Below are positions 43,178-53,285 of a stretch of 64,000 bases of DNA, in pieces. This DNA comes from Marinomonas communis (GTDB lineage Bacteria; Pseudomonadota; Gammaproteobacteria; Pseudomonadales; Marinomonadaceae), in assembly GCF_004363305.1 (NCBI RefSeq), contig NZ_SNZA01000001.1:460902-524901 (forward strand), in the 5' to 3' direction. How positions within the stretch are numbered: position 1 is the stretch's first letter; each line of letters opens with the position of its first letter. Both the position numbers and the translations under genes were made by a program. Under the pieces are notes generated by a model that worked only from the letters and a program-made list of their open reading frames with translations, was not told the origin of the DNA and did no database searches.

Positions 43178-43612
43178 ATGAAGAACCAGAGAAACTTTGG
43201 GTTTACCCTTATCGAACTAATGGTAGTAATTGCCATCATTTCAATCTTGGCAACAGTAAGCGCCCCCACCTTTGAAAAACACATCGCCAAGGCAAATTTA
43301 GTAGATGTTCAACTCTACGGTAATGAGCTCACTAGTGCAGTCGATGAATTTGTCTTAACCCATTCAGCGTTTCCAAGCGATACAGACTTTTCCAATTTCA
43401 AACCAGATCATAGCAATATAGATCTCATAAAAGCAGTAAGCCTATCTAAGCTCGACACGCTGCAGGGCTCTCTTTCGTTGAGTTTTGTTAAGGGCATTGG
43501 CATCAATGAAAACCAATTCATCAAGTACTCTAGAACGTCCAGCGGGACTTGGGTTTGCGAAACGTCATTAAGCAGCCAACTCATTCCCGAAAAATGTACG
43601 CCGGCAGAGTGA
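43178..43612 (+). CDS. Type IV major pilin-like protein (PilA)
   Basis: The 144-residue prepilin has a short basic leader (MKNQRNFG) cleaved before Phe, giving FTLIELMVVIAIISIL with the needed Glu at mature position 5. A C-terminal Cys pair about 15 residues apart (WVCET... and EKCTP) forms the usual D-region loop. The ribosome site ggagg at 43164-43168 is strong. It is the first gene of a cluster with ATPase, platform protein and prepilin peptidase, so it is the likely major pilin. It could instead be a pseudopilin of a competence-type machine. Confidence 0.87.
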   Translation: MKNQRNFGFTLIELMVVIAIISILATVSAPTFEKHIAKANLVDVQLYGNELTSAVDEFVLTHSAFPSDTDFSNFKPDHSNIDLIKAVSLSKLDTLQGSLSLSFVKGIGINENQFIKYSRTSSGTWVCETSLSSQLIPEKCTPAE

Positions 43613-43620
43613 GTGCAGAT

Positions 43621-44550
43621 ATGACTTTGGATCAATTAATGATTAGCACGATCGAGCGACAAGCCACAGACCTCCATATTCTCGTTCAACCCACACATGC
43701 TTGCGTTAAGTGGAGGTGTCATGGAAGACTTTCAGAGGAGCAGCTTCTTCCTAATGGCGAAATCCTTGTTAATCGAATAAAGATTTTATCCGAACTTAAC
43801 ATTGCCGAAACTCGCCGTGTTCAAGAAGGGATGTTTGACTATGAACACCTCAATCAACGCTACTCTATCCGCGTAAGTATTGTTCGGTCTGACAAAGGTG
43901 AAAAATTAGCTCTTCGAGTACTGCATTCATCGATTAGTGTTTTGATCGATGAACTAGGCCTAGGCAACCTTGCTTTGAGCGCTTTAAAAGAAAGCATTCA
44001 CTTGTCAAATGGACTTATTCTTGTTTGTGGCGCTACTGGCAGCGGAAAAACCACTACCTTATATTCATGCCTACAAGAGATAAATGATGGCTCTCGGTCA
44101 ATTTTCACCATCGAGGACCCAGTTGAAATGCCTACTGACGGGATTTATCAATTCGAACCAAATCCTGCACTCGACATTTCGACTCACGACCTACTAAAAG
44201 CATTCATGAGACAAGACCCTGATGTCATCATGGTGGGGGAAATTCGTGATGCTAAAACAGCTGATTTAGCCATATCAGCTGCGCTAACAGGACACCTAGT
44301 CCTTGCAACATTACATACCAACAACCCATTAAATGTTGTTCAACGATGCAAGAATTGGCAGGTGGATTATTTTGCTTTAGCAAGCTCTTTGAGATTAATT
44401 ATTCACCAGTCTATGCAGTACATAAACGAGAACCCACGACCGAAATTTACTACTATTCGACCAAACTGGGATAAAAAACTGCCATCTGATTATAACGACC
44501 TCATTGAGCAGCCCTCTCTATGGACATATCTTGATGAGGAGCCAGTATGA
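43621..44550 (+). CDS. Short PilB/GspE-type pilus ATPase
   Basis: The 309-residue ATPase has a truncated N-terminal domain (ATDLHILVQPTHACVKWRCH), then Walker A GATGSGKTTTLYSC near residue 150, Asp box FTIEDPVE, Walker B DVIMVGEIRDAKTADLAISA and His box TGHLVLATLHTNNP. It is about half the size of canonical PilB (around 565) because the N-terminal MshEN region is absent. The C-terminal tetracysteine zinc motif is also missing. The frame extends back to 43549 within pilA, but the pilin stop ends at 43612 and the first sensible start is the ATG at 43621. Size resembles PilT, but context (between pilA and pilC) argues for the extension ATPase. Confidence 0.82.
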   Translation: MTLDQLMISTIERQATDLHILVQPTHACVKWRCHGRLSEEQLLPNGEILVNRIKILSELNIAETRRVQEGMFDYEHLNQRYSIRVSIVRSDKGEKLALRVLHSSISVLIDELGLGNLALSALKESIHLSNGLILVCGATGSGKTTTLYSCLQEINDGSRSIFTIEDPVEMPTDGIYQFEPNPALDISTHDLLKAFMRQDPDVIMVGEIRDAKTADLAISAALTGHLVLATLHTNNPLNVVQRCKNWQVDYFALASSLRLIIHQSMQYINENPRPKFTTIRPNWDKKLPSDYNDLIEQPSLWTYLDEEPV

Positions 44551-45587: not shown

Positions 45588-46371
45588 CCTATTAATCTAC
45601 ATTGTCGCCTTGCTCTGCCTTGGCAGTAGCTTATCTTCATTCACCTATCGTTGGCATCAACGTGCAGAGTACGAATGGAAATCAGAAGCCCATGATTTTT
45701 TAGAGCTTCCCTTCTATGCTCCAAAGCCCTTAAGCTTTGTCCTTGGTCGCTCTTGCTGCCCCAAGTGTCATCACAAGCTTTCCGCATTGGATCTTATACC
45801 TTTACTTAGTTACGTATTTAGCAAAGGTCGCTGCCGTTATTGCACCAAGGAGATACCCTTACGCTATCCCATCATAGAGCTAATAACCGTTTTATTCTTA
45901 GTACCACTTTATTTCTTACCAATCAGTTCACTGGAATGGTTTATTTTATCCATCATTATCATGGCACTTATCTGTGCCATGATAATAGATGCTGAACACT
46001 ATTGGCTGCCTGACGAATGTGCTTTCATTGTTGTTGGTTTCGCTACTTATTATTTCTATATTAATGGCCATCAAGCATTACTACCCAATATCGCTGTCGC
46101 AATACTCTCTTATCTTAGCATCTATTGTCTAAGGGCCTTTTTTTTGCGCTTTAGGAGTATCGAAGCAATAGGTCTGGGGGACGCTAAGCTACTTGCCGCT
46201 CTGACTTATTGGTTAGGTTCAGCTTCCTACAGTAACATCCTTCTAATCGCCTCTTTTGCAGGTTTAATCTGGGCTATCCTTACAAGAAAAACGAAAGGCG
46301 AGAAAATTCCATTTGGACCTTTTTTAATCGCAGGCGCAGTTCTGTATTTTTACGTTGAGCAATTTAGATGA
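45550..46371 (+). CDS. pilD: Type IV prepilin peptidase PilD
   Basis: The bifunctional peptidase/N-methyltransferase cleaves prepilin leaders. It has the zinc-binding CCPKCHHKL ... GRCRYCTKEIP, the catalytic Asp pair in AMIIDAEHYWLPDECA and GLGDAKLLAALTYW, and about seven membrane helices. The first helix is after a short N-terminus; FAGLIWAI and IPFGPFLIAGAVLYF near the end fit the family. An in-frame TTG at 45541 opens the ORF, but the ATG at 45550 is more likely; both lie inside the 3' end of pilC (38-base overlap). The next gene, coaE, overlaps by four bases. This pilD-coaE order is the standard one in pseudomonads. Confidence 0.93.
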   Translation: MHHFWNQIILDLNLLIYIVALLCLGSSLSSFTYRWHQRAEYEWKSEAHDFLELPFYAPKPLSFVLGRSCCPKCHHKLSALDLIPLLSYVFSKGRCRYCTKEIPLRYPIIELITVLFLVPLYFLPISSLEWFILSIIIMALICAMIIDAEHYWLPDECAFIVVGFATYYFYINGHQALLPNIAVAILSYLSIYCLRAFFLRFRSIEAIGLGDAKLLAALTYWLGSASYSNILLIASFAGLIWAILTRKTKGEKIPFGPFLIAGAVLYFYVEQFR

Positions 46372-46988
46372 GTAAGACAATTAATTCCCCCATCATCATT
46401 GGGCTAACTGGAGGTATTGGCTCTGGTAAAACGACCGTCGCAAAGCTTTTCAACAAGCTTGGAGTGGAATCAGTAGACGTTGACGATATAGCTCGGGAGG
46501 TCGTTGCCCCTGGTGAAAACTGCCTTCAGGAAATCGTTCAAGCATTTGGAAGAGATATTCTTACTGAGGATGGCAGCCTTGATAGAGCCGGTTTAAGACA
46601 AATTGTATTTGCTGATACTGCTCTTCGCAAGAAATTAGAAAGCATCACTCACCCAGCAATTAAAGCGCGTCTAAAACAAAAAATAGCGTCCTGTGAAAGC
46701 AAAATTGTGCTACTTGTGCACCCTCTTCTTTTTGAAACTGGCCAAAATAGTGAATGCAAATTCACTATTGCTATTAGCGTCTCCAAGCAGATTCAGATTG
46801 AGCGAGTCATGCGTAGAGATAACAACAGCGAACAACAAGTTAATCGAATTATGGACACTCAGCTCACAAACCAAGAGCGCATCGAAAGAGCGGATTTTAT
46901 CTTGGAAAACACTAGCAACAACGCAGATTTGAGTGTTAAAGTCTTTCAATTACACAATAAATTACAAAGCCTACTATCATTAGAATAA
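46368..46988 (+). CDS. coaE: Dephospho-CoA kinase
   Basis: The 206-residue enzyme performs the last step of CoA synthesis. The P-loop IIGLTGGIGSGKTTVAKLFN is at the N-terminus; the DVDDIAREVVAPG block binds dephospho-CoA, and the conserved lid region is RVMRRDNNSEQQVNRIMDTQ. Its start overlaps the pilD stop by four bases and yacG starts on its last base, so the three are translationally coupled. Confidence 0.96.
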   Translation: MSKTINSPIIIGLTGGIGSGKTTVAKLFNKLGVESVDVDDIAREVVAPGENCLQEIVQAFGRDILTEDGSLDRAGLRQIVFADTALRKKLESITHPAIKARLKQKIASCESKIVLLVHPLLFETGQNSECKFTIAISVSKQIQIERVMRRDNNSEQQVNRIMDTQLTNQERIERADFILENTSNNADLSVKVFQLHNKLQSLLSLE

Positions 46989-47224: not shown

Positions 47225-48433
47225 ATGAATAAGCCTAACTTTTCAGATAAAAAAGCATTACTGATAGAAGACATGGCTGAAGCACGAATCATGCAGAAAA
47301 AAATGCTGAATGATTTTGGCTTTAAATCGATTGAAATCGCCATGAAGGCAGAAAGTGCGATTGAGTTGCTACGCTCTAATTCTTACGATGTCATCCTATC
47401 CGATTACAATCTTGGCAATGGTAAAGATGGCCAACAACTACTGGAAGAAGTTCGCCATTCACACCTTATTCCAAACACATCAACGTATTTAATGGTAACC
47501 GCTGAAACATCAACGGAAATGGTGATGGGTGCCATCGAGTACGTTCCAGATGGCTATATAACAAAACCGTTCTCGCAAGCCGTGTTAGAACGCCGACTAC
47601 TAAAGTTGATTAAAAATAAAGAACAACTATTGGAAGTCAACAAAGCTCTTGATGCTAACGATTATGAAAAAGCGGTATCTGAAGCACGCAAAGTAGCTGA
47701 TTCTAAACCCGCTTTAGCTGGCCGTTGTCATCGCATCATCGGCGATGCATTAATGAATCTAGAGAAATACCAAGAAGCTTTAGAGTTATTTAAAACTTGT
47801 CGAAAAGAGTCTCGAATGCCTTGGGCTGCATTCGGAGAGGCAAAGTGTCACTATTATTTAAACAATATAGACAAAGCTGAATCTAAGTTTCGTCAGCTCA
47901 CCTTAGATAACAAATTCTTTGTAAGCGCATACGACTGGCTTGCCAAAACCCTTGTAAAAAAGGGAGAGCTTGAGGAGGCTCAGGCCGTTCTTGTAGATGC
48001 AGTTGGACGCTCCCCTAAAAATTTGAAGCGCCAGATCGAATTAGGCAAGCTAAGCTTAGACGTCCAAGACAACCTCATGGCTGAGATGTCTTTTCGCCGC
48101 GCAGTGTTTCTTGCCAAACACTCCTGCTTTAATGAGGCAGAGGTTTACTTGCAACATATGACTGCAATCGTCGCTCTGGCACGCGAAGGCGATATCCCCT
48201 CAAGGCAAATTGATAACTTTCAGACTACTTTAAGTAAAGTGCATCAAAACTTTTTTGACTCACCTAAGGTTAGAAGTGAAGCTTATCTTCTTGAAATGGA
48301 GCTTTACAGTGCTCTGGGTGATAAAAAAACAATGAATCAAATAGAAGAAGTGTGGAACCATGATATCGAGTCTGGTAATGCCGAGCCTACTAGCGACTCT
48401 ATTCAGAAAAGAATTACTCAACTAAAGGCGTAG
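47225..48433 (+). CDS. REC-TPR response regulator (module A)
   Basis: The 402-residue protein has an N-terminal receiver domain (about residues 9-128) with acidic pair E15/D16, phospho-accepting Asp60 (SDYNLG), Thr/Ser in VTAET and Lys114 (ITKPFSQAVLERRL). The remainder is helical repeats of TPR type, including CHRIIGDALMNLEKYQEALE and LAKTLVKKGELEEAQAVLVD. There is no DNA-binding or enzymatic output, so it should act by protein contact. It is followed after eight bases by a small histidine kinase-like gene. A paralogous pair lies on the opposite strand just beyond. It begins 18 bases after yacG and may share the pilin/coaE transcript. Confidence 0.85.
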   Translation: MNKPNFSDKKALLIEDMAEARIMQKKMLNDFGFKSIEIAMKAESAIELLRSNSYDVILSDYNLGNGKDGQQLLEEVRHSHLIPNTSTYLMVTAETSTEMVMGAIEYVPDGYITKPFSQAVLERRLLKLIKNKEQLLEVNKALDANDYEKAVSEARKVADSKPALAGRCHRIIGDALMNLEKYQEALELFKTCRKESRMPWAAFGEAKCHYYLNNIDKAESKFRQLTLDNKFFVSAYDWLAKTLVKKGELEEAQAVLVDAVGRSPKNLKRQIELGKLSLDVQDNLMAEMSFRRAVFLAKHSCFNEAEVYLQHMTAIVALAREGDIPSRQIDNFQTTLSKVHQNFFDSPKVRSEAYLLEMELYSALGDKKTMNQIEEVWNHDIESGNAEPTSDSIQKRITQLKA

Positions 48434-48441
48434 TTCAGATT

Positions 48442-49101
48442 ATGCAAAAGATTGACATAAGCACCATTCTTGCAAGCGCCATTCATGAAAGTAAAAACCA
48501 CTTAGGCACCCTGCTTTATCAACTTGAAGCGCTTAAACGATTAAACTTACCTTCAGAAGGCAGTACTGCACTAAGAAAAGTTGAAGAAGGCATGAAGCAA
48601 CTCAATGATGAGTGGGTTGAATACTTGTACTTATATCGCTTGGCGTCAGATGGATACCAAGTTCATTATGAGTGCCATGCACTGGACGAGTTTCTAGATG
48701 ATCAAGTTTTTGCGCTTACTCCATCAGCGTCAGCAAAAAATCTTTCTCTATCCTACGATGTAGATGAATCTTTAACAGGAATATTTGATGAGCGCCTTAT
48801 GACAGCAGTGGTAGGTACAGCTGTTTATAACGCCCTGAGATTTGCAAAGAATAAAATTGAGATTAACGCTGACATCGTAGATGAATATTTAATTATCAAC
48901 ATCGAAGATGACGGTAAAGGATTCGAAGAAACAGCAAGTGAGGAAGATGAAATGCTGTTTCAAACCAATACTGGTCTTGGCCTTTACTTTGCCGAGTTGT
49001 CAGCAAACGCACACAAGGTTGACCATAAATCGGGGTTTATTCAGAAGCAAAGCTCCAGCAAACTTGGTGGAGCTAAGTTGACCATTCATTTACCACAATA
49101 A
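48442..49101 (+). CDS. Small soluble histidine kinase-like protein (module A)
   Basis: The 219-residue protein has a helical N-terminal part with an H-box-like ASAIHESKNHLGTLLYQLEA (His15) and a C-terminal HATPase domain: N-box VYNALRFAKNKIEINA, G1 box EDDGKGF, G2 box NTGLGLYFAEL. There is no transmembrane, PAS or other sensor domain. It is thus a minimal kinase or phosphatase/CheA-like piece, probably acting on the REC-TPR protein encoded just upstream. It ends ten bases before the stop of the convergent, paralogous module B gene. Confidence 0.8.
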   Translation: MQKIDISTILASAIHESKNHLGTLLYQLEALKRLNLPSEGSTALRKVEEGMKQLNDEWVEYLYLYRLASDGYQVHYECHALDEFLDDQVFALTPSASAKNLSLSYDVDESLTGIFDERLMTAVVGTAVYNALRFAKNKIEINADIVDEYLIINIEDDGKGFEETASEEDEMLFQTNTGLGLYFAELSANAHKVDHKSGFIQKQSSSKLGGAKLTIHLPQ

Positions 49102-49111
49102 CTGGATGAAC

Positions 49112-49792
49112 TTACGGTATAAGCATATCTATTCGACCACCACCAGTTGTGTCATCATTTTTCAAGGTAGTGCGGCCAAAACGCCCCTGATTGGTATGAA
49201 GTCTCACTACCTTATCGCAATATAGCCAGCCGGTATTTTGACTGGTCACATTGTCAACAGAGCTACCCGACACCAATGCATCATAAGCCTCTAATATAAA
49301 TTCTGGATAACCTCTCCCATTATCAATAACGGATAATAAAAGACCATCACTCGTTGCTTGAAACTGAATATCGATCTTATTGTTAGTGTATCTTAATGCA
49401 TTCAGGAGAGCGATTTGCAAAACTGTTTCCATCAGCTGCGAATCCAGATACCAACTAATATCCTCACCTTGCACAGTTACCTCAATTCCCTTCTGCTGTA
49501 GCAAAGCATCTAAACCTGCTAAGGTGTCTTCCACCAACTCTAGAACAAACGTTTCTGAAGCACTTACTACTAATTTATCATCATTCACCAAATACAAACC
49601 GTACATCTGGCTAATAACGTTTTGCATGCGAACAATTTCATATTGAGCCTCGGCAAACATATTTCTGTCCACACCATCAGTATTAGCAATAGCACTGTCG
49701 AGCTTAAATAAAACCTGACTCAATGAATTGCGCATATCTTTGATAGAAGCCTCAATAACCTCTTGAAAAGGTAATTGCGGTTGAAATGACAT
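49112..49792 (-). CDS. Degenerate kinase-like protein (module B)
   Basis: The 226-residue protein is a paralogue-like counterpart of the module A kinase. In the equivalent helix EASIKDMRNSLSQVLFKLDS a Lys (K18) occupies the position of the phospho-acceptor His, and the following HES is lost. The N-box (LNALRYTNNKIDIQ) and G1 (IDNGRGY) remain, but the G2 glycines are changed (NTGWLYCDKVV instead of TGLGL). It may bind ATP yet not phosphorylate. It follows the module B REC-TPR gene by 11 bases. Alternatives are a phosphatase or a scaffold. Confidence 0.75.
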   Translation of the reverse strand: MSFQPQLPFQEVIEASIKDMRNSLSQVLFKLDSAIANTDGVDRNMFAEAQYEIVRMQNVISQMYGLYLVNDDKLVVSASETFVLELVEDTLAGLDALLQQKGIEVTVQGEDISWYLDSQLMETVLQIALLNALRYTNNKIDIQFQATSDGLLLSVIDNGRGYPEFILEAYDALVSGSSVDNVTSQNTGWLYCDKVVRLHTNQGRFGRTTLKNDDTTGGGRIDMLIP

Positions 49793-49803
49793 GTAGCAGC
49801 CTC

Positions 49804-51474
49804 CTAAAACATGACCTTATAATGCTTTACTAAATACTCTTTTAAAGCATTCAATCTTTTATATTGTTTGTGTGCTGGAGTCACATGTCTTAGCCGTTGA
49901 ATTGATTCAACACACTCTGCAACCATATGTGACTCGCTACCTTGTGCTTCCATCAATTTAAGACAAGTTTGCACATAATTTAAATTCAAGCCTGGATGAC
50001 GGGGAGACAGCTCTAAAGCTGTTTTAAATTCATGGATTGCATCTTGATAAGCTTTATTTGAGTAGTGGTTTAGGCCCTGCTTGTTCAGTGATTTAGCTTG
50101 AGCTTTTGCTCCAAGACTGATTGGCTCGTCTAAGAAATCTGATGCTTGCTGCTTTAAGGCATCGCTTGTTGCCTGATCATTTACCAATGAAGCTAAAATA
50201 GTCTCTGCTTGCTCTTTCTCGCCAGCACTGTAGAGTGTCTTACCATATTCAACGACCAGATCTTGAGGCAAACCACCTTCTAACTCAGAGGCAATTTGCT
50301 TTGCGACTTGAAGTGACTGTTGTGCTTCGCGCATTTGACCTTGTGATGCATGAAAACGACTCTCAGCGAGAGACTTTCTTAACTTTACTGAATCATCATT
50401 GCCAAAGCGTTTTGTAACAACGGATAGAGCCTGACCAGCCTCAGCTAACAGCCTCTTTTTATCTGTGCTGTTTTCCACATTCGCAGCGGATTCAGCCACA
50501 ATGTCCACCAACTGAATATAATCATCAGGGCTTTCATGAACTGAGTTAATCCCCAACCGAACGGTTTGTTGACTGGCCTTCAAAGCCGTTTGGGGATCAC
50601 CATTTGCTAGGCTCACTGCAGCCATATGTTTTTGTCGTTTATGAATTCTTGGAGAGATTTTGATTGCATCATTTAAGATTTCTTGAGCCTCCTCTAACCT
50701 CCCCATTGCTTCATAAGCTTGTGCAAGTAGATCGTAAGCACTGATGGTCTGCGGGAATTGCTGAATAGTTTTCTGTAAAACCGATACAGCCTTAGGAAAC
50801 TGTTCTTGCGCCATCGCTAACCGAGCTAACCCAAGTAGAGCCCAATCTACTTCTCTTTGCTTAATCTCAGTTTTACAAAGATGCTCTAATTCTTGGCTAG
50901 CACCAGCATTCAAGTAAGCATCGACAAGATTACGCTTACACCAAGTCGCATAGCGGCCATTTTCTTCTATATGTTTAACGCAAAGAGGAATAAGCTGATC
51001 AAACTTCTCTTTTGCTATCAAAGTTTTCATTGTCGAAAGCGCTTTGGTTTGCACAAATTGACGCTCTAAACGGCGCGCAAGTACTGCTTGGGTAAAAGGC
51101 TTAGACAGGTACTCGTCAGGTTGAGATTCCATAATACCCATTACAACATCTCTACCCGTTTCAGCGGATACAATAATAAAGATATTAGTCGGCTTTAAGA
51201 GCTGTAGCGTTCTCAGCTCTTCTAGCACCTGTTGTCCATTCTTACCGCCGGTCAAGCGAAAATCACAAAGGACAATGTCGTATTTACGTGCTCTACAGGC
51301 ATCAACAACCCCTTTACCACTTGAGGTCTGATCAACATGCTGTATACCAAGCCCTTGCAGCATCTGACGAATTGATACACGAGAATTTTCAAATTCATCC
51401 GCGACAAGTGCTTGAAGCCCCGCATACACAGAGGAGTTTTGAGCAGCTTTAGCCTGAAATAAAGATTTATCCAC
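49804..51474 (-). CDS. REC-TPR response regulator (module B)
   Basis: The 556-residue protein starts with a receiver domain (about residues 17-140): acidic pair D26/E27, phospho-accepting Asp71 (LCDFRLTGGKNG), VSAET, and the SKPFTQAVLARRLERQ block, which is nearly the same as in module A. The C-terminal 400 residues are TPR-type helices (for example AYDLLAQAYEAMGRLEEAQE). It is longer than module A by about 150 residues of repeats. All REC catalytic residues look intact. It is divergent in direction from module A and convergent with it at 49.1 kb. There is no output domain. Confidence 0.85.
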   Translation of the reverse strand: MDKSLFQAKAAQNSSVYAGLQALVADEFENSRVSIRQMLQGLGIQHVDQTSSGKGVVDACRARKYDIVLCDFRLTGGKNGQQVLEELRTLQLLKPTNIFIIVSAETGRDVVMGIMESQPDEYLSKPFTQAVLARRLERQFVQTKALSTMKTLIAKEKFDQLIPLCVKHIEENGRYATWCKRNLVDAYLNAGASQELEHLCKTEIKQREVDWALLGLARLAMAQEQFPKAVSVLQKTIQQFPQTISAYDLLAQAYEAMGRLEEAQEILNDAIKISPRIHKRQKHMAAVSLANGDPQTALKASQQTVRLGINSVHESPDDYIQLVDIVAESAANVENSTDKKRLLAEAGQALSVVTKRFGNDDSVKLRKSLAESRFHASQGQMREAQQSLQVAKQIASELEGGLPQDLVVEYGKTLYSAGEKEQAETILASLVNDQATSDALKQQASDFLDEPISLGAKAQAKSLNKQGLNHYSNKAYQDAIHEFKTALELSPRHPGLNLNYVQTCLKLMEAQGSESHMVAECVESIQRLRHVTPAHKQYKRLNALKEYLVKHYKVMF

Positions 51475-51490: not shown

Positions 51491-52114
51491 CTAGTTTTCA
51501 TTTTTAAGGTAATCAACAAGCATTCGACCCGCAACTTCAATATGTCCTTTCAAATAGCGCAGTGCTTGGTCTTTTTGGTCGCTCTCAATCAACGAAATCA
51601 ACTTTTCATGCTCGTTCTGACTCGTGTCACGATAGTTAAGAGGGCCATATTGGAACCCCATGTAACGTCTCACTTGTTCATTGAGTATAGCGACTACATT
51701 AAATAAAGTAGGCCTATTTGCTACTTCATAGAGTGTCGCATGCAAATCCCAATTTAGCTGACCACGCTCAAGTAAGGTTAAACAAGGGTTATTAAGTTGT
51801 AAATTAATATCTTTAGCACGACCAAGCACTTCGTGCGTTAAGTTAGGCAGAGCATGTCCCAATAACTGAACTTCGAGAGCCATACGCATTTGATACAAAT
51901 CCTCGGCCTCACGCCAATTTAGCTCTGGCACCATGACACCCGCTTTACCATGAGTCACCAACCAACCTTGGTTTTTAAGCTGTGCAATTGCATCGCGAAC
52001 GGGAATGCGACTTACATTGTATCTAACTGACAATTCTTGCTGTCTAAGTGGACAACCTCGAGGCAATGCACCATTCAGGATATCAGCTTTTAGCTGCTCA
52101 ATAAGCTCCAACAT
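51491..52114 (-). CDS. GntR family regulator, FCD subfamily
   Basis: The 207-residue protein has a winged helix N-terminus (PLRQQELSVRYNVSRIPVRD, then AIAQLKNQGWLVTHGKAGVM) and an FCD ligand-binding domain with metal-ligand-like residues (DLHATLYEVANR and ENEHEKLISLI... H). It starts four bases after the BenE-type gene stop, so they are in one operon. The palindrome at 53319-53352 upstream of that operon has the GTATAC core found in many FCD-type operators, so autoregulation is plausible. The inducer is unknown. It precedes the module B REC-TPR gene by 16 bases, which could be read through. Confidence 0.87.
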   Translation of the reverse strand: MLELIEQLKADILNGALPRGCPLRQQELSVRYNVSRIPVRDAIAQLKNQGWLVTHGKAGVMVPELNWREAEDLYQMRMALEVQLLGHALPNLTHEVLGRAKDINLQLNNPCLTLLERGQLNWDLHATLYEVANRPTLFNVVAILNEQVRRYMGFQYGPLNYRDTSQNEHEKLISLIESDQKDQALRYLKGHIEVAGRMLVDYLKNEN

Positions 52115-52118
52115 GACG

Positions 52119-53285
52119 TTATGATTTTTTAAGATTTTGAATAAGAAGCACCGTTAAACCAAAACAGATTCCCCAGAAAGCTGAGGCCACACCAAAAAAT
52201 GATACGCCTGAAACGGTAGTTAAGAACGTAATGAGTGCTGGTTCGCGATAGCGCTCTTCATCAAAAGCCGCTTTCAGATTTGCTGAAATGGTCCCCAACA
52301 AAGCAATGCCTGCAAGCGCAGCGATCATCGTCTTAGGAAAAACAGCAAATAAACCAACCACTGTTGCCCCAGCCAACCCTGCCAATGCATAAAACACCCC
52401 TGCAGATAACCCAGCAATATAGCGTTTTGAAGGATCCTTATGGCACTCCTCACCACTACAGATAGCCGCAGTAATAGCGGCTAAATTGAACGCAAACCCA
52501 CCAAATGGTGCTAACAGTACGGTCGTTACCCCCGTCCAAGAGATAATATTTGATACGGGGGTTTCATATTTACTGGCTCTCATCACAGCAACACCAGGAA
52601 TGTTTTGGGACGTCAGCGTCACTATGAAAAGGGGCACACCCACACCTAAAATCAACGAAGTGTTCCACTCAGGTGCCACAAAACTCATACTGCCAATTGA
52701 TAAGGGAATACCACTAAAAGCGGCATGCGGCTGCAATAAAACCATGACAACGCCCGCTATCAATACCATGATGACAGCATAACGCGGCAGCACCACTTTA
52801 CAGGCTAAGTAAGCCACAATCATCACTGCAACAATAAGTGGATCAGTTTCTAGTGATGTGAAAATCGCCACACCAAAATTAAACAACACACCGACTAACA
52901 TAGCGCAAGCGACAGGCAATGGAATCCATCGCATTAAACGGTCAAACAAGCCGGATATACCCAACAAAAGCATCAGTCCACCGGCAAATATAAACAAACC
53001 AATGGCTTCAGCATAGCTTGCCCCAGTCAAGCTAGTTGCCAACAACGCGGCTCCAGGGGTTGACCATGCAGTGATAACAGGAGACTTATACCACATTGAT
53101 AAGAAAAAGCAGGTTGCCCCCATGCCTAAGCCTAGGGCCATGATCCATGATACTTTCAGAGCTTCACTAGCACCGGCCATATCCGCTGCCTGAAATACAA
53201 TCGCCACCGAGCTGGCAAAGCCGATTAATACCGCTACAAATCCTGCAGCAACAGCACTCAAGCTAATATCTTTTAAAACATTCAT
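52119..53285 (-). CDS. BenE-type benzoate/H+ symporter family transporter
   Basis: The 388-residue membrane protein has about 12 hydrophobic helices and matches the BenE/YdcO family: AWSTPGAALLATSLTGASYA in the N-terminal half, QNIPGVAVMRASKYETPVSN and LAPFGGFAFNLAAITAAICS later on. BenE imports benzoate with protons in Acinetobacter, but most members have unknown cargo. No benzoate degradation gene is present, so the true substrate may differ. The ATG at 53285 has ggag upstream; the operator palindrome lies 34-67 bases upstream. Confidence 0.85.
   Translation of the reverse strand: MNVLKDISLSAVAAGFVAVLIGFASSVAIVFQAADMAGASEALKVSWIMALGLGMGATCFFLSMWYKSPVITAWSTPGAALLATSLTGASYAEAIGLFIFAGGLMLLLGISGLFDRLMRWIPLPVACAMLVGVLFNFGVAIFTSLETDPLIVAVMIVAYLACKVVLPRYAVIMVLIAGVVMVLLQPHAAFSGIPLSIGSMSFVAPEWNTSLILGVGVPLFIVTLTSQNIPGVAVMRASKYETPVSNIISWTGVTTVLLAPFGGFAFNLAAITAAICSGEECHKDPSKRYIAGLSAGVFYALAGLAGATVVGLFAVFPKTMIAALAGIALLGTISANLKAAFDEERYREPALITFLTTVSGVSFFGVASAFWGICFGLTVLLIQNLKKS

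Follow-up and report, generated by a model that had tools for sequence, protein, structure and literature searches.

Histidine pseudokinases are known already from DivL and a laboratory form of ChrS, as are proteins in which a receiver (REC) domain is fused to tetratricopeptide repeats (TPR). A locus of Marinomonas communis, found at 47225-51474 of the 64,000-nucleotide stretch of contig NZ_SNZA01000001.1 that was analysed (the window), possesses both. It consists of two convergent modules, A and B, each with a REC-TPR gene and a gene for a small protein of the histidine kinase (HK) family, HK_A and HK_B. Judged from its sequence, HK_B is a dedicated histidine pseudokinase, as its kinase features (the phospho-accepting His, the polar N-box site, the basic residue of helix 2 and the G2 box) have been lost and the protein is nevertheless conserved. 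It is probably an off-switch or reader for its REC-TPR partner and not a kinase; the losses would date from long ago, and selection would have kept the protein since.

Like HK_B, DivL of Caulobacter is a HisKA pseudokinase in which the catalytic His is replaced and the fold of the dimerization and histidine phosphotransfer (DHp) and catalytic ATP-binding (CA) domains is kept, and docking of a receiver is expected of both. DivL has Tyr at this site, carries PAS domains and acts as a reader of DivK~P on behalf of CckA (PMC4211667). HK_B differs in having Lys, Asn or Gln at the site, no other domain, a retained acidic residue at +1 and a REC-TPR partner gene of its own adjacent to it. HisKA kinases of the HK853, CrdS and EnvZ kind have the same DHp-CA architecture, and their H-(E/D)-x-x-(T/N) motif is complete in HK_A. 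Unlike these, no sensor domain is seen in the proteins of the present locus, and HK_B is without the His, the polar N-box residue and the G2 box. TPR proteins act by contact, and by architecture the two REC-TPR proteins may be likened to VieB of Vibrio cholerae, an auxiliary protein which also has REC fused to TPR, a phospho-Asp and no DNA-binding domain. VieB inhibits the hybrid kinase VieS (PMC4352251), whereas here each REC-TPR protein has its own small kinase-like protein encoded adjacently. The ChrS pseudokinase of Corynebacterium resembles HK_B in that an inactive HK accompanies a live paralogous system; it originated from a laboratory frameshift (PMC9491836), whereas HK_B is natural, clade-wide and conserved. 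PpoS/PpoR of Marinomonas was set aside as a different, BarA/UvrY-like system (PMC8523701).

A literature search on REC-TPR pairs returned one inventory for P. syringae (PMC2222644), and a separate search listed no paper on REC-TPR proteins of Marinomonas. In the literature searches made, natural histidine pseudokinases were few, being mainly DivL, plus RocA. These searches found no description of the widespread two-gene module of a REC-TPR protein and a sensor-less DHp-CA kinase, nor of a natural clade lacking the His, G2 box and polar N-box site, keeping the +1 and mostly the +4 residue, and accompanied by its own REC-TPR protein and a live sister. HK_B represents another natural clade, small and without a sensor domain, with clear His-bearing relatives and a fixed partner; with such relatives, partner and size, it is directly testable whether a HisKA kinase can turn into a pure phosphatase or a pure reader.

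Residues lost and retained in HK_B

The comparison of HK proteins covered 222 distinct sequences from the fetched loci, a selection from the profile matches. His is present in 205 of these, Tyr in one, and one more is truncated before the site; the 15 remaining are all B kinases of the Marinomonas group, with Lys (6), Asn (6) or Gln (3) at the site. The initial annotation had reported Lys18 in place of His and loss of the G2 glycines in HK_B, both of which were found, and it had expected Lys18 to be conserved, which is not so, only the absence of His being conserved. The possibility it raised that B kinases of relatives keep a His also finds no support (0/15 distinct). Lys18 falls in the alignment column of the His in HK853 (HELRT), as does His15 of HK_A. 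Outside the genus, His was found in 68 of 69 rows in one locus set (the other being truncated before the site) and in 77 of 78 in a second (the other having Tyr); one of the two search patterns behind the first set was built on non-His residues, so that this pattern did not favour His. With the His column blanked, a 219-row FastTree tree, in which long branches are present, places two changes of His state, one in the Marinomonas B clade and one in locus L251. HK_B is also without the phospho-accepting His of histidine phosphotransfer (HPt)-like phosphotransferases, such as Spo0B and ChpT. HK_A possesses the boxes earlier ascribed to it, namely an HESKN H-box with His15 (HESKN in the aligned A rows) and N, G1 and G2 boxes, the first N-box site being Thr126, as in 68 of the 205 His-bearing rows.

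The change at the His site is accompanied by others. All 28 B rows (15 distinct) carry Leu68, Ile127, Gln185 and Trp189, none of which occurs at its site in the 178-179 His-bearing non-A rows with which these were contrasted. Leu68 ends DHp helix 2, where a basic residue stands in 175 of 179 contrast rows (Arg 102, Lys 73, Asn 3). Ile127 occupies the first site of the N box, which is therefore not fully intact in HK_B, this site being polar in all 205 His-bearing rows (N 117, T 68, D 9, S 6, H 4, E 1). The column of Gln185 has Thr in 169 contrast rows, Ser in 8 and Phe in 1, and that of Trp189 mostly Leu, Phe and Ile, such that HK_B does not have the G2 box of an active HisKA kinase, with Gln and Trp where Thr and Leu are usual.

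Other sites are retained. The acidic residue at +1 (Asp) is present in all 15 distinct B kinases. The Asn at +4, the HisKA phosphatase residue, is found in 13 of these, the window included, which therefore have all of the H-(E/D)-x-x-(T/N) motif but the His; the other two have Gln. Among His-bearing HKs the +4 Asn is present in 203 of 205, and the two exceptions (Ser and Thr, in L132 and L273) are unrelated longer HKs caught by the profile. In 11 of 11 B kinases the second Asn of the N box is kept, as is the G1 box (DNGxGYP).

An independent dead-looking member of the family was identified in a draft genome (L251:2982-3716, G236, 88% complete). This kinase has Tyr for His, Gly at +1, GG in the N box and no G2 box, with the +4 Asn kept, and its REC-TPR neighbour keeps the phospho-Asp.

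Distribution and kinship of the two modules

HK_A was matched in all 35 genomes of the genus and HK_B in 11 of them (E <= 1.6e-39), while the order-wide search gave three further B-bearing genomes of the genus (G222, G242, G262). By named records, the group falls in Marinomonas and Maribrevibacterium, and among the loci read A and B were seen side by side in this group only. Module B is convergent with and adjacent to module A in every one of the B loci read, contrary to the possibility, also raised initially, of modules occurring without conserved pairing. The gap from gntR to REC-TPR B is 10-35 bp in each B locus with both genes readable. Module A occurs without B in 24 of the 35 genomes and so does not need it. 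In 17 of the 21 A-only genomes that were mapped, gntR lies directly after HK_A and convergent to it, which puts B at the junction of A with benE-gntR; in the remaining four, gntR is approximately 3.2 kb off (one genome) or was not seen (three).

HK_B looks to be under constraint. In the only low-dS pair of eight (dS, synonymous divergence, 0.69) the ratio of nonsynonymous to synonymous divergence (dN/dS) is 0.054 for HK_B and 0.032 for HK_A, and in a second pair, which is near saturation (dS 2.81), it is 0.051 and 0.047. HK_B diverges faster than HK_A (65 vs 81% identity, window vs L061). The trees of A and B have 10 of 11 splits in common over 14 taxa, the conflict being at weakly supported nodes (69/73 and 84/87). 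Together with the distribution, this would fit a single arrival of B, vertical inheritance and several losses.

Modules A and B look like two ancient, distinct lineages of a single module type. In the HK tree, which carries long-branch warnings and an unsettled bootstrap, a branch with support of 99/96 sets B together with seven His-bearing out-of-genus rows against A with two. The REC-TPR tree, made by a quick method and also with long-branch warnings, gives the same division apart from O_L073, whose REC-TPR groups with A. Genome G055 has both module kinds, both with His and on separate contigs. A recent duplication giving A and B was ruled out by the 99/96 branch that parts them. Identity of the DHp helices between A and B is low (19% for alpha1, 12% for alpha2). 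The REC alpha1 docking helix is 30% identical between A and B; for B and five out-of-genus rows that bear His the figure is 48%, and this together with the gene pairing suggests that REC_B pairs with HK_B. The initial annotation had pointed to near-identical REC blocks in the two modules. The KPF(T/S)QAVLxRRL block is indeed alike in A and B, but it is no mark of kinship between them, given that across the beta5-alpha5 stretch A and B are about as similar to out-of-genus rows (52-55%) as to each other (53%); on the same ground the block was rejected as a sign of A-B exchange.

The module type is found more widely, with 131 of 390 genomes of the order matching the kinase profile (E <= 1e-20); weaker matches include other HKs. 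Of the 69 rows for loci L112-L180, 35 have the REC-TPR gene upstream of the small kinase and 25 have it downstream, while no REC-TPR gene was found next to the kinase in the other 9; several of the kinase-first cases are betaproteobacterial records. Motilimonas and Idiomarina/Idiomarinaceae (L123, L127, L131, L133, L140, L164, L165, L171) have a His-bearing small kinase with no REC-TPR match alongside (profile E 1e-20), in a conserved neighbourhood whose genes are taken here, from their sequence, to be a fumarase, a pabB-like gene, a NUDIX gene and a LysR-type regulator. In 22 loci of the order (among them L074, L079 and L254-L265) A-like modules, mostly of HEIKN type, adjoin a gene presumed to be glyQ, which seems to be a conserved chromosomal position. 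Other neighbours of relatives are presumably glyQS and lpxL. The neighbour genes of relatives gave only clade-specific neighbourhoods, with no common function seen. In L078 (5637-7258, G044) the REC-TPR gene is present as two overlapping open reading frames (ORFs; 239 and 357 aa), due to a frameshift or a sequencing error.

Possible function of HK_B

The AlphaFold2 model of HK_B has a mean predicted local distance difference test (pLDDT) score of 89. In the VIA ranking DivL (4q20_A) comes first (Z 22.5, 2.4 Å, 205 residues), followed by the CA domains of ThkA (20.4, 19.7) and HK853-RR468 complexes (19.6). By E-value, Foldseek puts HK853 complexes at the top and DivL in 21st place, but among the best 50 matches listed DivL has the highest TM-score (0.82/0.80). 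Profile matches were to chains of HK853, a HisKA kinase. The model of REC-TPR B (mean pLDDT 90.4) has a REC domain and a long helical part, and its fold search returned generic TPR superhelices only.

The favoured reading, held tentatively and at a little under even confidence, is that HK_B acts on phosphorylated REC-TPR B as a phosphatase. In CrdS, the half-life of the phosphorylated response regulator is 53.5 min alone, 0.7 min with wild-type CrdS, 2.6 min with H371A and 47.6 min with N375A (PMC3510030); that is, most of the phosphatase activity survives replacement of the His, whereas it disappears when the +4 Asn is replaced. The intact catalytic residues of REC_B and the HK853-RR468 complexes among the best structural matches also agree with a phosphatase. 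HK_B would dock to REC-TPR B at the usual DHp/receiver interface and strip it of its phosphate, and in that case the phosphate would have to be supplied by another source, whether acetyl phosphate, HK_A or some other kinase. Levels of HK_B as the off-switch would probably follow the benE-gntR operon, since module B lies directly behind it, and the TPR part, going by its family, may relay the signal by protein contact.

Several points weigh against a phosphatase. PleC H610A is also without phosphatase activity (PMC3510030), the activity of HK853 is diminished by H260A (PMC5727384), and the His of HK853 is reported to take part in the phosphatase reaction (PMC7005713). DivL, which has Tyr at the site, does not act as a phosphatase but stabilises DivK~P (PMC4211667), and it is DivL that best matches the HK_B model in the VIA ranking. 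The +1 acid, reported to be necessary for kinase and not for phosphatase activity, is kept in all B kinases, and a pure phosphatase would not need it. To these can be added the two B kinases with Gln at +4, an H-box identity of 47% between B and its out-of-genus relatives as against 80% among those relatives, and the dN/dS pairs, of which only one in eight has low dS and six are saturated for HK_B.

In place of a phosphatase, HK_B could be a reader like DivL, binding REC-TPR B~P without dephosphorylating it and relaying by contact, perhaps to HK_A or to BenE/GntR functions. This is possible but doubtful. DivL has neither kinase nor phosphatase activity; its binding of an ATP analogue is weak, and DivK~P is bound on the face that docks response regulators (PMC4211667). 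The first place of DivL by VIA, and by TM-score among the matches listed, and the invariant new residues at the HK_B G2 box (Gln185, Trp189), as if for a new role, agree with such a reader. However, the PAS sensor domains of DivL are absent from HK_B, the +1 acid and mostly the +4 Asn are kept, and the Foldseek E-value puts HK853 complexes above DivL, a shared fold in any case showing no function. Direct modulation of module A, with HK_B as heterodimer partner of HK_A or as a decoy sequestering REC_A, is unlikely given the low DHp identity of A and B, the differing REC alpha1 helices and the many genomes with A and no B, even though B adjoins A in all B loci read and the laboratory pseudokinase ChrS appears to promote phosphotransfer from its paralogue HrrS (PMC9491836). 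It is worth mentioning that EnvZ variants meant as phosphatases could not be distinguished in cells from sequestration of the response regulator (PMC8971529), which would favour a decoy.

That module B is instead a decaying gene set being lost from the genus would account for its absence from 24 of 35 genomes and the faster divergence of HK_B; it is nonetheless improbable, as the frames are open in all B loci read, dN/dS is about 0.05 in both computable pairs, the new residues are invariant across the clade, the catalytic residues of the receiver are intact and the layout is the same throughout. The initial annotation had proposed a switch in which the two REC-TPR proteins would swap partners by way of one active and one inactive kinase, perhaps in control of the pili encoded upstream. 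The conserved pairing of an active-looking and a dead kinase stands, and REC-TPR A does follow the coaE gene of a pil-coaE run in all 32 genus loci that were mapped, one of them the window. The link to the pili is nevertheless one of position only, coaE and REC-TPR A being 236 bp apart and the nine out-of-genus loci mapped having no match to pil, coaE, gntR or benE genes. Partner exchange finds no support in the docking helices, which differ between A and B and in B are closer to the out-of-genus rows, and module B lies behind benE-gntR. This version is very improbable, and benE-gntR is a likelier link for module B than the pili, since its gap and order are constant.

Returning to the phosphatase, it could be supposed that Marinomonas made a receiver phosphatase from a histidine kinase, shedding the kinase residues, keeping the phosphatase one and placing the gene behind a transporter/GntR operon opposite a live sister module. 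This fuller scenario is doubtful; if true, kinase and phosphatase functions that normally belong to one HK would be split between two convergent modules.

Gene layout at the locus

The four ORFs of the two modules were confirmed in coordinates and strand by an ORF check and are given with their neighbours in Table 1. By Pfam, the two long proteins have Response_reg and TPR domains, and the two short ones have HATPase_c only, above the Pfam cut-off. The modules had been described as mirror images; they are convergent, but the halves are unequal, the two REC-TPR proteins differing in length. The phospho-acceptor Asp noted earlier in each REC domain is there in both, and the acidic pair, Thr/Ser and Lys of the receiver are also present in 32 A, 11 B and 9 out-of-genus rows. 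The ends of HK_A and HK_B are separated by 10 bp, HK_B and REC-TPR B by 11 bp, and gntR and benE by 4 bp; gntR would be in the same operon as REC-TPR B. A promoter and terminator scan was uninformative (6 promoter-like sites vs 14.0 in shuffles, 10 terminator-like sites vs 6.1).

Table 1. Features of modules A and B and of the adjoining genes (positions in the window)
Feature	Position	Strand	Remarks
coaE	46368..46988	+	End of pil-coaE run, context only; 236 bp 5' of REC-TPR A
REC-TPR A, 402 aa	47225..48433	+	Phospho-acceptor Asp60 (47402-47404)
HK_A, 219 aa, sensor-less DHp-CA histidine kinase	48442..49101	+	His15 (48484-48486); Glu16, Asn19, N box, G1 and G2 present
HK_B, 226 aa, histidine pseudokinase (from sequence)	49112..49792	-	Lys18 (49739-49741) replaces His; Asp19 and Asn22 (49727-49729) retained
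HK_B clade-specific residues			Leu68, Ile127 (49412-49414), Gln185, Trp189 (49226-49228)
REC-TPR B, 556 aa, GTG start	49804..51474	-	Asp71 (51262-51264); REC and long helical TPR part
GntR/FCD-family regulator	51491..52114	-	16 bp upstream of REC-TPR B
BenE-family transporter	52119..53285	-	Likely opens the benE-gntR-REC_B-HK_B run

In the pil genes, the PilB-like ATPase beside pilA is short (approximately 300-340 aa; 43549-44550 in the window, and orthologues in L061-L070), with a T2SSE domain in the window copy. The PilC-like protein shows little conservation, with 20-44% identity between the window and L061-L070.

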